Origin: Anaerolinea sp.
Lineage (GTDB): Bacteria; Chloroflexota; Anaerolineae; Anaerolineales; Villigracilaceae
DNA: 64,000 nucleotides
Assembly (NCBI GenBank): GCA_020723805.1
Contig: DYID01000001.1
Location: 1-64,000, forward strand
Direction: 5' to 3'
In this document: positions 25,214 to 64,000 of the stretch, piece after piece
Numbering within the stretch: the first letter of the stretch is position 1
Layout of the letters: every line of letters begins with the position of its first letter
Notes under the pieces: generated by a model
The model's database searches: none
What the model saw: the letters and a program-made list of their open reading frames with translations, nothing else
What the model was told of the DNA's origin: nothing
Program-made: the position numbers and the translations under genes

Positions 25214-26008
25214 ATGACTTACTTCGGCTTCCTCCTCCGCTTCCTCGTCCTCCCCATCCTTGTCCTCCTCGGTATCCACTACCTGCTCCCTCGCGCAGAC
25301 GGGGAACGGGCTGGGGTGAGGGTCAACCCGCGCGCCGTGTGGACTGCAATCGCCGTCCACGTCTTTCTCGCCGTTGCCTACACCACCCCCTGGGACAACT
25401 ACCTCGTTGCCACGGGCGTCTGGTACTACAACCCCAGCCTCGTGACGGGCATTGTCCTCGGCTACGTGCCGATTGAAGAATACACCTTCTTCGTCCTCGA
25501 AACGATTCTTTCAGGCTTGTGGTGGTGGTTTCTGGCGCGCCGCATCTCGCCGCCCATGCAAGAGTTCAAACCCAACAAATTACTTGTGTACCTGTCTGCG
25601 TGTGTACTTGTATTACTCTGGCTCCTCTTCACCGCCCTTTTCTTCTTCGGCGACATGAAATGGACCTACCTCTCCATCACCCTCTTCTGGGCATTGCCTG
25701 CGATTCTCCCGCAGCTGCTCTTCGGCGCGGACATCCTCTGGCATCGCCGTAAACTGGTCTTCTGGAGCATCCTCGTCCCTGGGACGTACCTCTCGCTGAT
25801 GGACATCCTCGCGCTCAAAGAGACCACGTGGTCCATCTCCCCGTCTCAGACCACAGGCATCCTCTTCTTCGGCATCCTGCCGCTGGAGGAGGTGGTCTTC
25901 TTCTTCATCACCAATGTCCTCATCATCTTCGGCATGACGCTGCTGCTTTCGGCGGAGGGACGTGCGCGCTTCGCGGAATGGAAGGCGCTCCTCCGCCCCG
26001 CTCACTGA
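25214..26008 (+). CDS. Fused lycopene cyclase (CrtYc-CrtYd type)
   Basis: 264 residues, about seven membrane segments. Two homologous halves each carry the cyclase motif: VPIEEYTFF (first half) and LPLEEVVFFFITN (second half), plus TPWDNY after the first segments. This is the heterodimeric-type cyclase joined in one chain, as in Myxococcus/Thermus-like or archaeal bifunctional proteins. Cyclises lycopene ends to beta- or epsilon-rings, giving the substrate for a P450 hydroxylase. An in-frame repeat (ADGERAGVRVN, residues about 28-38) enlarges the first loop. A GATCACT tandem tract follows the stop. Confidence 0.85.
   Translation: MTYFGFLLRFLVLPILVLLGIHYLLPRADGERAGVRVNPRAVWTAIAVHVFLAVAYTTPWDNYLVATGVWYYNPSLVTGIVLGYVPIEEYTFFVLETILSGLWWWFLARRISPPMQEFKPNKLLVYLSACVLVLLWLLFTALFFFGDMKWTYLSITLFWALPAILPQLLFGADILWHRRKLVFWSILVPGTYLSLMDILALKETTWSISPSQTTGILFFGILPLEEVVFFFITNVLIIFGMTLLLSAEGRARFAEWKALLRPAH
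25296..25325 (+). repeat. In-frame repeat inside the lycopene cyclase gene
   Basis: GACGGGGAACGGGCTGGGGT then GAGGGTCAA; reverse complement matches the CTCACCCC-AGCCC element at 57742 in the LLM gene. Confidence 0.6.
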
Positions 26009-26056
26009 TCACTGATCACTGATCACTGATTACTGATCACTGATTACTGATTACCC
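26003..26056 (+). repeat. GATCACT/GATTACT tandem tract
   Basis: About seven copies of CTGATCA or CTGATTA between convergent genes. A related tract (ACTGATTACTGTTC) lies at 60306-60392. Confidence 0.8.
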
Positions 26057-33328: not shown

Positions 33329-35501
33329 GTCAGAATCAATAAATGCCCGTCAGGGCATTAAGACGTGTTGGGGCGCCGAGGCGCTGAAGGCGAAGTCCCC
33401 GAGTCAGAATCAATAAATGCCCGTCAGGGCATTAAGACGGATAGACTGGCAAGGATGCGGGGAAAGCGTCTTTTGCGTCAGAATCAATAAATGCCCGTCA
33501 GGGCATTAAGACAGAAATTTCTTAGGTGGGATTTAACATTCACATCCGGGTCAGAATCAATAAATGCCCGTCAGGGCATTAAGACATATTAGGAATGGTA
33601 TCAGAGGTTTCAAGCCATTTTGTCCAGTCAGAATCAATAAATGCCCGTCAGGGCATTAAGACTGAGGTTCCTGTTCCATAGTTACTCTACAATCGAAAGT
33701 CAGAATCAATAAATGCCCGTCAGGGCATTAAGACTCACATATTCAAGCAGGTTCGCCAATGTGCGGCAAAGTCAGAATCAATAAATGCCCGTCAGGGCAT
33801 TAAGACTTTACTTGCGGCGGCTTTTTATAGCCTTCGCCACTTTGGTCAGAATCAATAAATGCCCGTCAGGGCATTAAGACCGAACACGCCGCCAGAGCCG
33901 CGCACAACACCACAAAGTCAGAATCAATAAATGCCCGTCAGGGCATTAAGACTCATCGCACGCCGCGAGATTAGCCGCAACCCCGAAAAAAGTCAGAATC
34001 AATAAATGCCCGTCAGGGCATTAAGACTCAGCAATTAGATTTGCCCATTTCGGGCGTAAAAAGTCAGAATCAATAAATGCCCGTCAGGGCATTAAGACCA
34101 GACAAGTGCAAACTCGACCCACCACAGAAAAACAAAGAGTCAGAATCAATAAATGCCCGTCAGGGCATTAAGACCCCAAACAATATGAAAAAGATAAAAA
34201 CAATCCCCCTAAGTCAGAATCAATAAATGCCCGTCAGGGCATTAAGACCTTAAACATTCTTGGCATACGAACCCCCTTTTCGTTTTGTCAGAATCAATAA
34301 ATGCCCGTCAGGGCATTAAGACACATCGTATTTTCTATGGAAAAGGATTTCTTTTATTAGTCAGAATCAATAAATGCCCGTCAGGGCATTAAGACTTTTA
34401 TATTCACAGGTAATACTCTCTCCATTCCCTCGGTCAGAATCAATAAATGCCCGTCAGGGCATTAAGACTCTCGCAACTGAGGACTGTTACCGGTAAACAG
34501 TCCAGTCAGAATCAATAAATGCCCGTCAGGGCATTAAGACGTACTCTTTCACAGCATCCATTGTCATCGTCATTTTTAGTCAGAATCAATAAATGCCCGT
34601 CAGGGCATTAAGACTTGCGATTGTGACCGCTGATTTCTCCGCGCTCAATTTCTCGGGTCAGAATCAATAAATGCCCGTCAGGGCATTAAGACTGGAACAA
34701 TGGCTAATCGAGTGGTTAAAACACATCGGTCAGAATCAATAAATGCCCGTCAGGGCATTAAGACCCGAGTCCGTTAGCCTGTAAGTTGTTAAGGTTCCGA
34801 GTCAGAATCAATAAATGCCCGTCAGGGCATTAAGACTCATTGCTCAGCAATTCATTAAACCATTTTCGCTCATCTGTCAGAATCAATAAATGCCCGTCAG
34901 GGCATTAAGACCGCCTCAAATCGTCCACGGCGTTTACCACATCAATCTTGGTCAGAATCAATAAATGCCCGTCAGGGCATTAAGACCAAATCGGTGTTGG
35001 GTCGTCGAAAAAGTTAGTGGTTGGTCAGAATCAATAAATGCCCGTCAGGGCATTAAGACGTTTCTGGCAGGACGTCTTTGTAGGCGTCCAGGATGTTGGT
35101 CAGAATCAATAAATGCCCGTCAGGGCATTAAGACCAAACCGTTGGGCGGCAAGCCCAGAAAGGAATCTTTTGTCAGAATCAATAAATGCCCGTCAGGGCA
35201 TTAAGACCTTGCCATCTGGAACTTCTTTCGCGACCCGCTTGTCAGTCAGAATCAATAAATGCCCGTCAGGGCATTAAGACGCACTGAGGCAGTTCCCGCC
35301 ATAAAATTTCTATTCAAGTCAGAATCAATAAATGCCCGTCAGGGCATTAAGACTTTTGTTGGGTACATGCAAATCCCAAACTACGACCCGTCAGAATCAA
35401 TAAATGCCCGTCAGGGCATTAAGACCGGTTTGCCTTCCACCCGTTTTTGCCCGTGAGGGCAAAAAGTCAGAATCAATAAATGCCCGTCAGGGCATTAAAC
35501 G
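33329..35501 (+). CRISPR. CRISPR array, 30 repeats, 29 spacers
   Basis: 36-bp repeat, starting GTCAGAATCAATAA and continuing ATGCCCGTCAGGGCATTAAGAC in two parts. Inside is a stem AATGCCC-GTCA-GGGCATT. Repeats begin at 33329, 33403, 33477, 33550, 33627 and so on to 35466; period 71-78, so spacers are 35-42 nt. Twenty-nine repeats appear identical; the last (35466) loses the final bases (ATTAAACG instead of ATTAAGAC), marking the distal end. Transcribed rightward the 3' repeat end ATTAAGAC would give an 8-nt handle resembling that of type I/III crRNAs. No cas gene adjoins it, so type is unassigned. Confidence 0.98.
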
Positions 35502-60052: not shown

Positions 60053-60289
60053 ATGCCCCTCATTCGTTCCTCCGATATTGGAACCTATCTCTATTGCCGC
60101 CGCGCCTGGTGGTATCGAAAACAGGGCGTCGAACCGGCGAACCAGGCGGAACTGGCTGCCGGGACTGAACTCCATCGAAAGCATGGACGTCAGGTGCTGG
60201 CTTCATCCATCAAACGGACAATCGGGTTGATACTGCTGATGATTGCCCTCGTTCTGCTCGTGGCATACTGCTCGGCACAGATTCTTTAG
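60053..60289 (+). CDS. Cas4-like N-terminal Cys segment with membrane helix
   Basis: 78 residues from ATG 60053. MPLIRSSDIGTYLYCRRAWW matches the N-terminus of Cas4/Dna2-type nucleases, where this Cys is the first ligand of the Fe-S cluster. A charged middle and one membrane helix (TIGLILLMIALVLLVAYC) follow. The nuclease body is missing here but is encoded by the next ORF, 103 bp downstream, itself with an N-terminal membrane helix. Together they look like one nuclease split in two. The pairing is an inference. Confidence 0.7.
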   Translation: MPLIRSSDIGTYLYCRRAWWYRKQGVEPANQAELAAGTELHRKHGRQVLASSIKRTIGLILLMIALVLLVAYCSAQIL

Positions 60290-60305
60290 CCATTCATTGC
60301 AACCG

Positions 60306-60392
60306 TAACTGATTACTGTTCACTGATTACTGTTCACTGATTACTGTTCACTGATTACTGCTCACTGATTACTGCTCACTGCTTACTGCCTC
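60306..60392 (+). repeat. GATTACTGTTCACT tandem tract between the two Cas4-like ORFs
   Basis: Six imperfect copies of ACTGATTACTGTTCACTGAT-type words (later CTGCTCACTG). It ends at the start codon of the second ORF. Related to the tract at 26003. Confidence 0.85.
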
Positions 60393-60905
60393 ATGCTCTA
60401 CCTTGCCCTCGCCCTGCTCTTCCTCGCCTTCCTTCTCTTCTGGCAATCGAGCCGCCAGCGGAAAGCCGCCGGTCTGCCCGGTGGGCGCGTCATCTACACC
60501 GATACTCGCGGCTGGAACAAAGTGGAAAAACCGCTCTACTACGCTCCCCTCGAATTGACCGGCAAGCCCGATTACCTCATCGAAAAGAACGGGCAGATTA
60601 TTCCTGTGGAGGTCAAATCGGGGCGTGCGCCCGATGCGCCGTATGACTCACACATCTTTCAACTGGCTTCCTACTGCCTGCTGGTGGAAAAGACCTATCA
60701 CAAACGTCCCCCTTATGGGATCATTCACTACGAGGGGCGCGACTTCGCCGTGGATTACACCCGCGACTTGGAAGCCTCCCTGCTCGACCTGCTGGCGGAG
60801 ATGAAACGCGACGAGCGCAGGAAAGAAGTCCCTCGGTCGCATGAACAGGCGTCCCGTTGTAAGCGATGCGGGTATCGGGATGCGTGCGATCAGTCGTTGG
60901 CGTAA
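60393..60905 (+). CDS. Cas4-like PD-(D/E)XK nuclease body with membrane anchor
   Basis: 170 residues. One membrane helix (residues 2-17), then the nuclease core: GKPDYLIEKNGQIIPVEVKSGRAP gives the Asp and ExK of the PD-(D/E)XK site, followed by HIFQLASYCLLVEK with a QxxxY motif. The C-terminus has CKRCGYRDAC (C-x2-C-x5-C), the three downstream Fe-S ligands. In Cas4 the fourth ligand is near the N-terminus; here it is on the previous ORF. Such stand-alone Cas4-like nucleases occur outside CRISPR loci. No cas1/cas2 nearby. Confidence 0.8.
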   Translation: MLYLALALLFLAFLLFWQSSRQRKAAGLPGGRVIYTDTRGWNKVEKPLYYAPLELTGKPDYLIEKNGQIIPVEVKSGRAPDAPYDSHIFQLASYCLLVEKTYHKRPPYGIIHYEGRDFAVDYTRDLEASLLDLLAEMKRDERRKEVPRSHEQASRCKRCGYRDACDQSLA

Positions 60906-60923: not shown

Positions 60924-61787
60924 ATGTCCGACATTTTCATCCCCAAACATCCCGTTGTGACCGCCTACCCAAAAATGCCCGAAGCCTTTGCGGAGGTTGC
61001 GGCAATGTCGGCGTATTTCAAAGAGAGGGGGCTGGATGCGCCGCACGGCTCGATTTACGATGAGGAATTGCGTAAACGGGTACGCGCGGGGGAGTTCGAC
61101 CTGCTGATTATCGCGGGCGGCGACGGGAGCGTCTTGCGGGCGGGACATCTCTGTGCGCCGAGCAGGGTTCCGATTCTGGGCGTGAACCTTGGTAATATCG
61201 GCTTCCTCATTCAGGTGGACCGCCATGAGTGGCGCGAATATTTCGACAAACTGCTGGCAGGCGAAGCGTGGATCGAGAATCGCATGATGATTCACGCCGA
61301 ACACATTCGGGCTGGCGAAATCGTCGGTTCGTGGGATGCGTTGAACGAGGTGGTGGTTGGGCGCGGGCAGACTTTGCGCCCCGTCCGTCTGACGGCGTTT
61401 GTGGACGGGCGTCAGTTAACCAGTTACGTTGCAGACGGGTTGATTGCCGCCACCGCCACCGGCTCGACCGCCTACGCCCTCGCCGCGGGCGGACCCATCC
61501 TGCCGCCCGAACTGCGCAACATTTTGCTCGTGCCGATTGCCCCGCATCTTTCCGTTGACCGCGCGGTGGTACTTGCCGCAGGTTCGATGGTCGGCATTCG
61601 CGTGGACAGCGAAAACGCCGTCTTGAGCATTGACGGTCAGCCCTCCATCACCCTGATGGAGGACGACCGTGTGGATGTGCGCGCCGCCCAGGTCACCGCC
61701 CAATTCGTCCGCTTTGGCGACCCCGGCTACTTCTACCGCAACCTGACCGCCCACATGAACGAAAACTCTTTGCGGCTGCCACGATAA
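60924..61787 (+). CDS. nadK: NAD kinase
   Basis: 287 residues. IIAGGDGSVLRAGHL is the GGDGS/T motif; LGVNLGNIGFLIQV follows; ATATGSTAYALAAGGPILPPE is the nucleotide-binding glycine-rich region. Phosphorylates NAD to NADP in the cytoplasm. Starts 19 nt after the Cas4-like nuclease stop, so it could also be read from that transcript. Followed by a B-box protein gene and recN in the same direction. Confidence 0.94.
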   Translation: MSDIFIPKHPVVTAYPKMPEAFAEVAAMSAYFKERGLDAPHGSIYDEELRKRVRAGEFDLLIIAGGDGSVLRAGHLCAPSRVPILGVNLGNIGFLIQVDRHEWREYFDKLLAGEAWIENRMMIHAEHIRAGEIVGSWDALNEVVVGRGQTLRPVRLTAFVDGRQLTSYVADGLIAATATGSTAYALAAGGPILPPELRNILLVPIAPHLSVDRAVVLAAGSMVGIRVDSENAVLSIDGQPSITLMEDDRVDVRAAQVTAQFVRFGDPGYFYRNLTAHMNENSLRLPR

Positions 61788-61866: not shown

Positions 61867-62394
61867 ATGACCGAAGTAACCACCGAAACACTCTACTGCT
61901 ACGTTCACCCAACCCGTGAGACCACCCTGCGCTGCGCCACCTGCGAACGTCCCATCTGTGTCTCGTGCGCGATCCGCACGCCGACGGGCTACCGCTGTAA
62001 GGAATGTGTGAAGGGACAGCAGAAGATCTTCAACACCGCTGAATGGTATGACTACGTTATTGGTTTTGTCGTGGCGGCGGTGCTTTCGGGTATTGCCTCT
62101 TTTCTCGTGACCCTCATCGGGGGCTTCGGCATTTTTGGCTGGTTCATCATCTCCGCCGGCGCGCCGACAGCCGGTGTCTTCATTGCCGAAGCGGTGCGGT
62201 TTGTCGTTCGCAGGCGGCGGGCGCGCGCCTTGTTCCTCACCGTCGCGGCGGGCGTGGTGCTGGGCGCATTGCCGACCCTGCTCTCTCAACTGGTTTTCTT
62301 CGACCTGTTTGGTGTCATCTTTCAAGCCATCTATCTTTTCATCGCCGTTCCTGTTGTGTACACACGCCTGTCGGGCATCCAATTGTTCCGATGA
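61867..62394 (+). CDS. B-box zinc-finger membrane protein
   Basis: 175 residues. Residues about 9-50 form a B-box-like zinc finger: CYVHPTRETTLRCATCERPICVSC then GYRCKECVKGQQ. Three or four membrane segments follow (GFVVAAVLSGIASFLVTLIG, then IFGWFIISAGAPTAGVFIAE). The layout, zinc finger then membrane domain, is common in Chloroflexota and actinobacterial proteins of unknown role. recN starts 10 bp after its stop. Confidence 0.83.
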   Translation: MTEVTTETLYCYVHPTRETTLRCATCERPICVSCAIRTPTGYRCKECVKGQQKIFNTAEWYDYVIGFVVAAVLSGIASFLVTLIGGFGIFGWFIISAGAPTAGVFIAEAVRFVVRRRRARALFLTVAAGVVLGALPTLLSQLVFFDLFGVIFQAIYLFIAVPVVYTRLSGIQLFR

Positions 62395-62404
62395 GACCTG
62401 ATTC

Positions 62405-64000
62405 ATGCTTACCGAACTTCACATCCAAAACTTTGCCATCATAGACAAACTCGACCTGCGCTTCGGTCCCGGTCTCATCATCCTTACCGGCGAGACGGGC
62501 GCGGGCAAGTCCATCATCCTCGACGCCGTGGTCATGCTCATCGGCGGCAAGGCGGATACGACCTACGTCCGCACGGAGTCAGACGCGGCGCTGGTCGAGG
62601 GCGTGTTCCAGCTCAAAGGTCCAGAAAGAGAAGCGGTGCATGAGGTTTTGAAGCGCGAAGAATTGATGGACGATCCCGATTACGTCACCCTCTCCCGCGA
62701 AATCCGCAGAGAGGGACGCAGTGTGGCGCGCGTCAACGGGCGGACAGTGGGAGTCTCGCTCCTGAAGGAAATCGGCGCGCTCGTGGTGGATATTCACGGA
62801 CAGGCGGAACATCTCTCGCTTCTCGATTCGCGCGCGCACCTGGGCTTGCTCGACCGCTACGCCGACATTGCGCGTCCCCTCAGCGACTACCGCCAGACCT
62901 ACCACGCTTTGTTGAATCTGCGCCGCGAGTTGAACGAACTCCGCAAAGCCCAGGCAGACGCCGACCGCCGCATCGAGATGCTGACTTATCAAGCGGAGGA
63001 AATCGAAGCGGCGCGTCTGAAAGCGGGCGAAGACGAAGAACTGCGCAAGGAACGCGACCGTCTCGCCAACGCCGAGTCGCTGGCGCAGAACGCGCAGGAG
63101 GCGCTCGCCATCCTCGACGAGGGTTCGCCCGAAATGCCCGCCGCCAGCGACCTGATCGGGCAGGCGGCGCAGGCGCTGGGCGCGCTGGCAAAACTCGACC
63201 CAGCCCAAAACGAACTGGCAAATCAGGCGGAAGTCCTGCTCGATACCATCTCTGAGATTGTCCATAGTCTGCGGAATTATCTCGATGAAATCGAGTTCAA
63301 CCCCAAGCGGCTGGAGGATGTGGAGGAGCGCCTCGACCTCATCCATTCCCTCAAACGCAAGTATGGCGGGAGCATCCCGGCGGTCATTGCCTACGGACAG
63401 GACGCCCGCAGACAACTGGAAACCATCACAGGCGCGGCGGAACGCATCGAAGAACTGGAATTGCAGGAGGCGAAACTGCTCGATGCGCTGGCAAAGCAGG
63501 CAAGTCTGTTGAGCGAAAAACGCAAGTCGGCGGCGGAGGCGATGAGCAAAGGCATCGAAGCCGAACTCGACGATTTGCGGATGTCTGCCGCCCAATTCCG
63601 CGTGGATTTTCAAACCAAGCCCGACCCGAACGGCATCCCCCTGGGGAACGGCGACCGCGTCGCTTTCGACCAAAACGGATTCGACAAAGTGGAATTCCTC
63701 ATCGCTCCCAACCCCGGCGAGGGACTCAAGCCGCTGGTCAAAATCGCCTCGGGCGGCGAGACCTCGCGCCTGATGCTGGGACTGAAAAACGTCCTCGCCC
63801 GCGCTGACGAGGTGCCATCGCTTATCTTCGATGAAATTGACCAGGGCATCGGCGGGCGCGTGGGCATGACGGTCGGACAAAAGTTATGGAATCTCTCGCG
63901 CCTGCATCAGGTCTTCTGCGTGACGCACCTCCCGCAACTGGCGGTCTTCGGCGACGAGCATTACCATGTTCAGAAACTGGTGCAGGGCAGCCGCACCATC
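62405..64000 (+). CDS. recN: DNA repair protein RecN, partial (3' end outside window)
   Basis: 532 residues visible from ATG 62405; continues past the edge (RecN is about 550-580). Walker A ILTGETGAGKSIILDAVVML, LHIQNFAIIDKLDL at the start, VVDIHGQAEHLSLLD, a long coiled-coil middle (about 150-360), signature ASGGETSRLMLGL and Walker B PSLIFDEIDQGIGGRVG. SMC-like ATPase in double-strand break repair. With nadK it follows the common nadK-recN order. Confidence 0.96.
   Translation, partial: MLTELHIQNFAIIDKLDLRFGPGLIILTGETGAGKSIILDAVVMLIGGKADTTYVRTESDAALVEGVFQLKGPEREAVHEVLKREELMDDPDYVTLSREIRREGRSVARVNGRTVGVSLLKEIGALVVDIHGQAEHLSLLDSRAHLGLLDRYADIARPLSDYRQTYHALLNLRRELNELRKAQADADRRIEMLTYQAEEIEAARLKAGEDEELRKERDRLANAESLAQNAQEALAILDEGSPEMPAASDLIGQAAQALGALAKLDPAQNELANQAEVLLDTISEIVHSLRNYLDEIEFNPKRLEDVEERLDLIHSLKRKYGGSIPAVIAYGQDARRQLETITGAAERIEELELQEAKLLDALAKQASLLSEKRKSAAEAMSKGIEAELDDLRMSAAQFRVDFQTKPDPNGIPLGNGDRVAFDQNGFDKVEFLIAPNPGEGLKPLVKIASGGETSRLMLGLKNVLARADEVPSLIFDEIDQGIGGRVGMTVGQKLWNLSRLHQVFCVTHLPQLAVFGDEHYHVQKLVQGSRTI

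Follow-up and report, generated by a model that had tools for sequence, protein, structure and literature searches.

A probable Cas4-family nuclease encoded by two genes, each with a membrane helix, in Chloroflexota

Two neighbouring genes with complementary matches to Cas4

The window, that is the whole stretch of 64,000 nucleotides analysed here, harbors two open reading frames, ORF1 and ORF2, which are separated by 103 nt and lie in different frames according to the ORF list of the window (Table 1). ORF1 contains the sequence YLYCRRAWW and a C-terminal hydrophobic helix; ORF2 contains PDYL...PVEVKSG and CKRCGYRDAC, both after a hydrophobic helix at its start. A sequence-only reading of the locus had interpreted the former as a Cas4-type N-terminus followed by a membrane helix, and the latter as an initial membrane helix with a PD-(D/E)XK core and the CKRCGYRDAC segment. 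Profile searches bear out the Cas4 character of both: the cas4 profile TIGR00372 matches ORF1 over positions 2-47 with 26 bits (E 6.7e-6), short of the curated cut-off of 65, and ORF2 over positions 55-178 with 75.7 bits (E 3.7e-21), above that cut-off. Likewise, profiles of Pfam, NCBIfam and PADLOC assign the two ORFs to Cas4 over complementary stretches. TIGR00372 is also matched individually by 38 of the 44 relatives of ORF1 and by all 46 relatives of ORF2 (E up to 0.01), hence ORF1 belongs to the Cas4 family and not to an unrelated one. Judged from these matches, the resemblance of both ORFs to Cas4 exceeds chance. The whole host genome contains three cas4 matches in all, with ORF2 as the sole one over the cas4 cut-off.

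Table 1. Features of the locus, in window positions.
Feature	Position	Strand	Description
ORF1	60053..60289	+	78 aa; Cas4-type nuclease N-terminal half and C-terminal membrane helix; ATG start, TAG stop
ORF1 Cys15	60095..60097	+	expected Fe-S ligand 1; 44/44 rows; 36/36 phylum-level loci
ORF1 His41	60173..60175	+	motif-I active-site His (GxxxH); 44/44 rows; 34/36 loci; role by analogy with Pcal_0546 His94 (PMC4176176)
ORF1 hydrophobic helix	60221..60277	+	residues ~57-75; N side cytoplasmic by charge
14-bp tandem array	60308..60388	+	between the ORFs; unit ACTGATTACTGTTC; not part of the system
ORF2	60393..60905	+	170 aa; N-terminal membrane helix, PD-(D/E)XK core and three-Cys C-terminus
ORF2 hydrophobic helix	60396..60452	+	residues ~2-20; C side cytoplasmic by charge
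ORF2 Asp60	60570..60572	+	motif II; 46/46 rows; 35/36 loci
ORF2 Glu73-x-Lys75	60609..60617	+	motif III; 46/46 rows; Glu 35/36, Lys 36/36 loci
ORF2 Cys156, Cys159, Cys165	60858..60887	+	expected Fe-S ligands 2-4; 46/46 rows; 36/36 loci
NAD kinase	60924..61787	+	18 nt past ORF2; neighbour in 22/64 stretches
RecN-like gene	62405..64000	+	extends beyond window end; neighbour in 25/64 stretches

Predicted catalytic residues and cluster ligands are spread over both chains

In solved Cas4 structures, the cluster is held by one N-terminal and three C-terminal Cys, and motifs II and III provide the metal ligands (PMC4176176). The same set of four Cys is present here only across both chains, and so are the RecB motifs I (H), II (D), III (ExK) and QhxxY, these motifs with exceptions in the loci L119, L153 and L155-L157: ORF1 lacks the catalytic acid, ORF2 lacks the first Cys and the motif-I His. 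The latter residue is found within the sequence GTELHRKHG of ORF1 and had been missed in the earlier reading. Since ORF1 holds this His, the active site is divided, and not only the cluster. A helper role has been proposed for the conserved His94 of Pcal_0546, and the H80A variant of SSO1391 is inactive (PMC4176176); we equate H80 with His94.

The alignment of ORF1 (44 rows) is invariant at S7, C15, R17, W19, G37 and H41. For ORF2 (46 rows), the invariant residues include D60, E73, K75, Q90, Y94, H150, C156, C159 and C165. Across 36 phylum-level loci, which include two (L148, L150) from genomes already represented in the family alignments, the four Cys, K75 and Q90 are retained in all 36, D60 and E73 in 35, H41 in 34, Y94 in 32, H150 in 28 and R17 in 26. 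ORF2 has one further common Cys, C95, that could in principle complete a cluster within this chain; it is kept in 30 of the 36 loci only and is therefore an unlikely fourth ligand.

Several loci deviate from the pattern. Tyr94 is replaced by Leu in L155-L157, Asp60 by Glu in L155, and the ORF1 His by Arg in L153. Together with the incomplete conservation of R17 and H150, these changes indicate that part of the divided family may be altered or inactive. L155-L157 are divergent pairs whose activity may be lost or changed, and in L155 another ORF1-like stretch is located about 4 kb off. One might then suppose that the membrane heterodimer no longer cuts DNA at all and serves as a binding, sensing or scaffold protein, a view that the changed motif residues of L119, L153 and L155-L157 would favour. 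We regard it as quite improbable, as D, E, K, Q and Y are present in 46 of 46 ORF2 rows and the His in 44 of 44 ORF1 rows.

Both halves carry a predicted membrane helix

All 65 distinct pairs have one hydrophobic stretch per half, with a 19-residue Kyte-Doolittle mean of at least 1.78 in ORF1 and at least 1.74 in ORF2. K and R residues precede the ORF1 helix in 63 of 65 pairs (the other two are ties) and follow the ORF2 helix in all 65. From this placement of charges, the soluble parts of both halves should be cytoplasmic. These pairs depart from the usual form of Cas4, a single soluble chain, as each consists of two ORFs with one helix each. We compared the pairs with 20 ordinary Cas4 of the same genomes, hand-picked from the weaker matches of the class and phylum searches. 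These are encoded in a single open frame, and none of the 20 has a membrane helix (maximum Kyte-Doolittle mean 1.18). The N-terminal Cys pattern is found in 19 of them, with some matches of this simple pattern located upstream of the true start, CxxC...C in all 20, and a GxxxH-like motif in 14.

The halves co-occur and are often unlinked

ORF2 is found in 55 of 61 near-relative genomes, including the host genome itself. Among 199 genomes of the class, 136 encode both genes, one ORF2 only, three ORF1 only (one a weak match) and 59 neither (Fisher p ~1e-45, a value inflated by shared descent, which the test ignores). For this count, ORF2 matches weaker than ~1e-22 were taken as ordinary Cas4 and left out, which affects 8 of 145 genomes (G079, G097, G113, G119, G170, G185, G205, G219); all 139 genomes with ORF1 were kept, including the weak match in G138. 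The one genome of 137 in which ORF2 occurs without ORF1 is G102, and its match lies 303 nt from a contig end. Internal stops are present in six of the class-wide match rows (G063, G092, G125, G132, G138, G212). The same pair of ORFs, which the sequence-only reading had suggested looking for in related genomes, is thus present in 136 of 199 genomes of the class and also elsewhere in Chloroflexota: in a phylum sample of 301 genomes, ORF1 is found in 77, some of them beyond the class, and pairs were read out there too. The corresponding ORF2 search matched 113 of the 301 genomes, ordinary Cas4 included. In another phylum, that of G528 (labelled Acidobacteria), the ORF1 profile had 0 matches among 247 genomes, in a search run without positive control; the locus from G528, L054, is cut by a contig end and preserves just the end of an ORF2-like gene.

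The starts of both genes are less than 500 nt apart in 61 of the 136 genomes and 500-3000 nt apart in 31; in three they are further apart on one contig, and in 41 they are located on different contigs. Of the three distant cases, one spans 5.7 kb; the second is G212, at 183 kb, whose ORF1 match contains a stop, and the third is G070, at 2.8 Mb, whose genome consists of one contig. In the phylum sample, G516 likewise has both halves on one contig, at a distance of ~0.9 Mb. Within the 65 distinct pairs, which form the first set that was read, the halves are always separate ORFs with gaps of -4 to 851 nt. Duplicates were removed from this set, L029 and L078 were lost to the motif filter despite having both ORFs, contig ends cut L014, L044, L054 and L082, and L055 and L056, which match over 22 residues, were not used. 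Judged at the locus only, 4 of 69 distinct ORF2 loci have no whole ORF1 nearby: none was found near L053 and L072, L062 is at a contig end, and in L039 ORF1 leaves the frame within the helix. In L039, a HEAT-like gene follows this ORF1.

The linkage data bear on how the two chains are made. Several relatives have short gaps or 4-nt overlaps between the ORFs, as would suit synthesis of the pair as one protein by recoding (frameshift or readthrough). We consider this highly improbable for the family, since 41 of the 136 genomes carry the halves on separate contigs, three have them on one contig at distances of 5.7 kb to 2.8 Mb, and in seven loci of the neighbour census described below another gene lies between them; for unlinked pairs recoding is ruled out. 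The co-occurrence of halves that are often unlinked rather indicates two genes kept together by selection, with which neither a local frameshift nor recoding nor the insertion of a tract agrees.

The last of these refers to the tandem tract between the ORFs. The sequence-only reading had described a tract of 87 bp, and an array of close to this length and a 14-bp period is indeed found; its suggestion that the tract had split a single gene fails. The corresponding rival view would be a recent break of one membrane Cas4 gene in this genome, with both pieces in decay, for which the position of the array between the pieces speaks. The exact 18-nt tract word occurs in only four of 182 loci, all from the window's own genome and none from another, and the division into two genes is class-wide and extends elsewhere in the phylum. 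Moreover, a like array exists elsewhere in the window, the ORFs are separate in 65 of 65 distinct pairs at the variable gaps given above, and the halves are far apart in many genomes. Relatives without the tract rule it out as the cause of the split, and a recently broken gene has next to no probability. With respect to the arrays themselves, the same short array stands at 26002-26051 and at 60308-60388, 34 kb from each other, with 7 exact ACTGATTACTG words versus 0.01 expected. A CRISPR-like array with unit GTCAGAATCAATAAATGCCCGTCAGGGCATTAAGAC and a period of ~73 was recognized by eye in the tandem-repeat output at 33626-35353; the cas1 gene of the genome is on another contig.

A fused version with two helices was not seen among the loci read. 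The sole single-ORF form is L119 (G165, open frame from 4713), which has 219 aa and no membrane helices. It has lost Glu73, His41 and Tyr94, and its placement within the divided family is weakly supported (0.633), so that it looks like a late, decayed fusion and, by its sequence, is probably inactive. When 58 divided sequences, including L119, are placed in a tree with the 20 ordinary Cas4, the two groups are on opposite sides of one branch (support 0.969), as expected from a single origin. The wide distribution of the division across Chloroflexota suggests a working two-part enzyme and not a broken gene.

A joined-chain model adopts the Cas4 fold

For structure prediction we chose L038, whose ORFs are 3 nt apart and in frame, and read through the stop to obtain one chain of 252 residues (69 aligned rows). 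The joined-chain model has a mean pLDDT of 95.0 and a pTM of 0.89, in a construct that puts the halves side by side and thereby favours their association. In the prediction, H31-78 comprises the motif-I helix and, continuous with it, the membrane helix; ORF2 contributes a second helix (H85-107). The closest solved structures are those of the type I-C CAS-Cas4 and the Cas4/Cas1 fusion: 8d3l_I (Z 18.4, 181 residues, rmsd 2.9) and 7mi4_A (Z 19.6, 182 residues, rmsd 2.9), each with an aligned range of 1-252 that spans both halves. Further matches are 4ic1_D (SSO0001, Z 13.5) and 4r5q (Pcal_0546, Z 11.9), above which AdnA (15.3) and EXO5 (13.8) rank. The Cas4 fold was obtained for the predicted joined chain of L038 only.

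ORF2 of the window modelled alone has a pLDDT of 84.0 and a pTM of 0.70, with values of 71-78 in the last 30 residues (the Cys region), and matches 7mi4_A with Z 13.3 over 130 residues and 8d3l_J with Z 10.4 over 128; the comparison with the joined chain is fair in part only, as sequence and alignment depth differ. These models concern the possibility that ORF2 is the whole working enzyme, either as a three-Cys or as a cluster-free membrane Cas4, and that ORF1 is a separate regulatory or anchoring protein. All of D, ExK, Q and Y are located on ORF2, and nuclease activity survives mutation of the Cys in Pcal_0546 and SSO1391, whereas it does not in SSO0001 (PMC4176176). Against this, ORF2 is without the motif-I His and its helix, which ORF1 keeps alongside the first Cys in all 44 rows, the model of ORF2 alone is worse, above all near the Cys, and ORF2 is almost never found without ORF1 (1 of 137 genomes). 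We therefore hold a self-sufficient ORF2 to be unlikely.

Gene neighbourhood points away from CRISPR adaptation

The neighbours within the window are genes for a thioesterase, NAD kinase and a RecN-like protein, which agrees with the earlier description of the locus as lying outside a cas operon. Judged at the window, the pair has the position of a solo-Cas4, that is, a cas4 outside cas loci, and not that of a CAS-Cas4 in a cas1/cas2 module; the single cas1 of the genome is located on a contig other than that of the pair. No association with cas1 is seen across 199 genomes either: cas1 is found in 85 of 136 genomes with the pair versus 35 of 63 without (Fisher p 0.36), which leaves 51 genomes with the pair that show no cas1. 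Between the NAD kinase and the RecN-like gene, a small protein is encoded at 61867-62394, whose relative in L033 weakly matches a B-box zinc finger, below the cut-off.

The neighbour census comprises 64 stretches (63 loci and one window piece, with some genomes represented twice). The gene caller was crude, calling ORF2 41 times in the 64 stretches, and one member per neighbour cluster was tested against Pfam. The census lists RecN-like genes in 25 stretches, NAD kinase in 22, B-box-like genes in 22, HEAT-like genes in 8, translin-family genes in 7 and M50 proteases in 5, where 'HEAT-like' denotes a weak Adaptin_N match and 'B-box-like' a match that is below the cut-off as well. No neighbour is common to all lineages in the 64 stretches; neighbours are lineage-specific. 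In the home family, as well as in L138, L146 and L147, ORF2 is followed by NAD kinase and the RecN-like gene, two genes that frequently adjoin in bacteria anyway. A translin-family gene (PF01997, one member tested) precedes ORF1 on the same strand in L052, L141, L142, L143, L145, L150 and L152, and touches ORF1 or lies within 150 nt of it in 6 of these 7 loci. The five loci with an M50 protease are outside the class. A HEAT-like gene is located between the halves, neither of which is lost, in L032, L033, L040, L042, L043, L045 and L047.

Translin proteins bind single-stranded nucleic acid, by which the role leans to DNA maintenance. A part in DNA entry stays conceivable in view of a Cas4-like nuclease of Synechococcus that was found to lower transfer or maintenance of RSF1010 replicons (PMC10653904). 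For a link to competence, ComEC (PF03772) is too common to discriminate: it is present in 177 of the 199 genomes, with upper bounds, as two negatives are unlisted, of 124 among the 136 genomes that have the pair and 55 among the 63 that lack it. The least certain part of our interpretation is the cellular role. Housekeeping DNA-end processing or repair would suit the RecN and translin-family neighbours; degradation of incoming DNA is the other candidate, and we favour either of them over CRISPR adaptation.

Relation to known Cas4 proteins

The pair belongs to the Cas4 family (DUF83, TIGR00372): the predicted fold, the motifs and the expected ligands of the family are found across two chains, in place of the single soluble chain that is usual. 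The Cas4 proteins characterised so far are nucleases of this soluble, single-chain kind. Solo-Cas4 (COG1468 / PF01930 / TIGR00372) shares with the pair the Cas4 motifs, the 1+3 Cys, a location outside cas loci and the occurrence in Chloroflexi; the pair differs in having two chains with a membrane helix on each. A monophyletic solo-Cas4 of many Chloroflexi was reported in 2017, in a study that ascribes four conserved Cys to all Cas4 family members (PMC5704561). The accessible text of that study mentions neither a divided gene nor membrane helices (the words transmembrane and split occur 0 times each). Searches of the literature, with preprints and most subscription journals outside their coverage, likewise returned no report of a divided or membrane Cas4.

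Other relatives differ in similar respects. The Cas4 of 8d3l and 7mi4 is a single soluble chain or a Cas1 fusion and works with Cas1-Cas2, unlike the pair with its lack of cas1 association across 199 genomes; 8d3l_I is also matched by the sequence profile, in two stretches. The nucleases AddB, AdnA, Dna2 and EXO5 have the nuclease fold of the joined model (Z 10 to 15) and presumably its Cys pattern; they are helicase-linked or single-chain, and to our knowledge have no pair of membrane helices. The Argonaute-associated Cas4 family protein ACE1 (9iab, 9iac; Z 11) is a further Cas4 relative outside CRISPR and, from what its available description gives, is a single chain tied to Argonaute, unlike the pair. 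SSO0001 and Pcal_0546 (4ic1, 4r5q) have ligands and motifs in an order identical to that of the pair, for Pcal_0546 Cys64/200/203/209, Asp123, Glu136, Gln149 and Tyr153 (PMC4176176), with all ligands on one soluble chain, unlike the pair.

A proposed two-subunit nuclease at the membrane

Taken together, ORF1 and ORF2 are very likely separate genes for two subunits of one Cas4-family nuclease at the cytoplasmic face of the cell membrane. The best reading is that of an obligate heterodimeric, membrane-tethered DNA exonuclease of the solo-Cas4 type with one common Fe-S cluster, whose assembly, cluster and activity we infer. This is in line with the central proposal of the sequence-only reading, namely that the two chains jointly rebuild one cluster at the membrane, which gains support from the complementary profile coverage, the conserved residues, the predicted topology, the co-occurrence of often unlinked halves, and the model. 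ORF1 would supply the N-terminal Cys and the motif-I His and end in a membrane helix; ORF2 would start with a membrane helix and supply the catalytic D-ExK, QxxxY and three Cys. In the membrane, the two helices would lie together as the arms of a hairpin that has no loop, and the soluble halves could thereby form a single Cas4 fold holding one Fe-S cluster (1+3 Cys) and one metal site. By analogy with soluble Cas4 in vitro, the complex would most likely trim single-stranded DNA ends at the membrane. With respect to its origin, the simplest course would be the insertion of a membrane hairpin into a Cas4 domain, at the loop that follows the motif-I helix, together with a break of the chain on the outer side of the hairpin.

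The data also suggest that the second subunit goes unnoticed where annotation relies on ORF2, the score of ORF1 falling short of the family cut-off. If the two-subunit reading is true, the pair represents an unusual natural split enzyme, whose catalytic residues and cluster ligands are spread over two membrane proteins, with genes that are retained jointly although they are often unlinked. It would also allow a direct test of solo-Cas4 function outside CRISPR, in which either half is deleted and activity is restored by adding the other. More tentatively, the divided active site and Fe-S cluster of a widespread, obligate two-subunit enzyme may act as a safety catch, such that the halves cut only when together in the membrane and trimming is confined there; trimming would then perhaps be limited to entering DNA or to membrane-attached sites of replication and repair.
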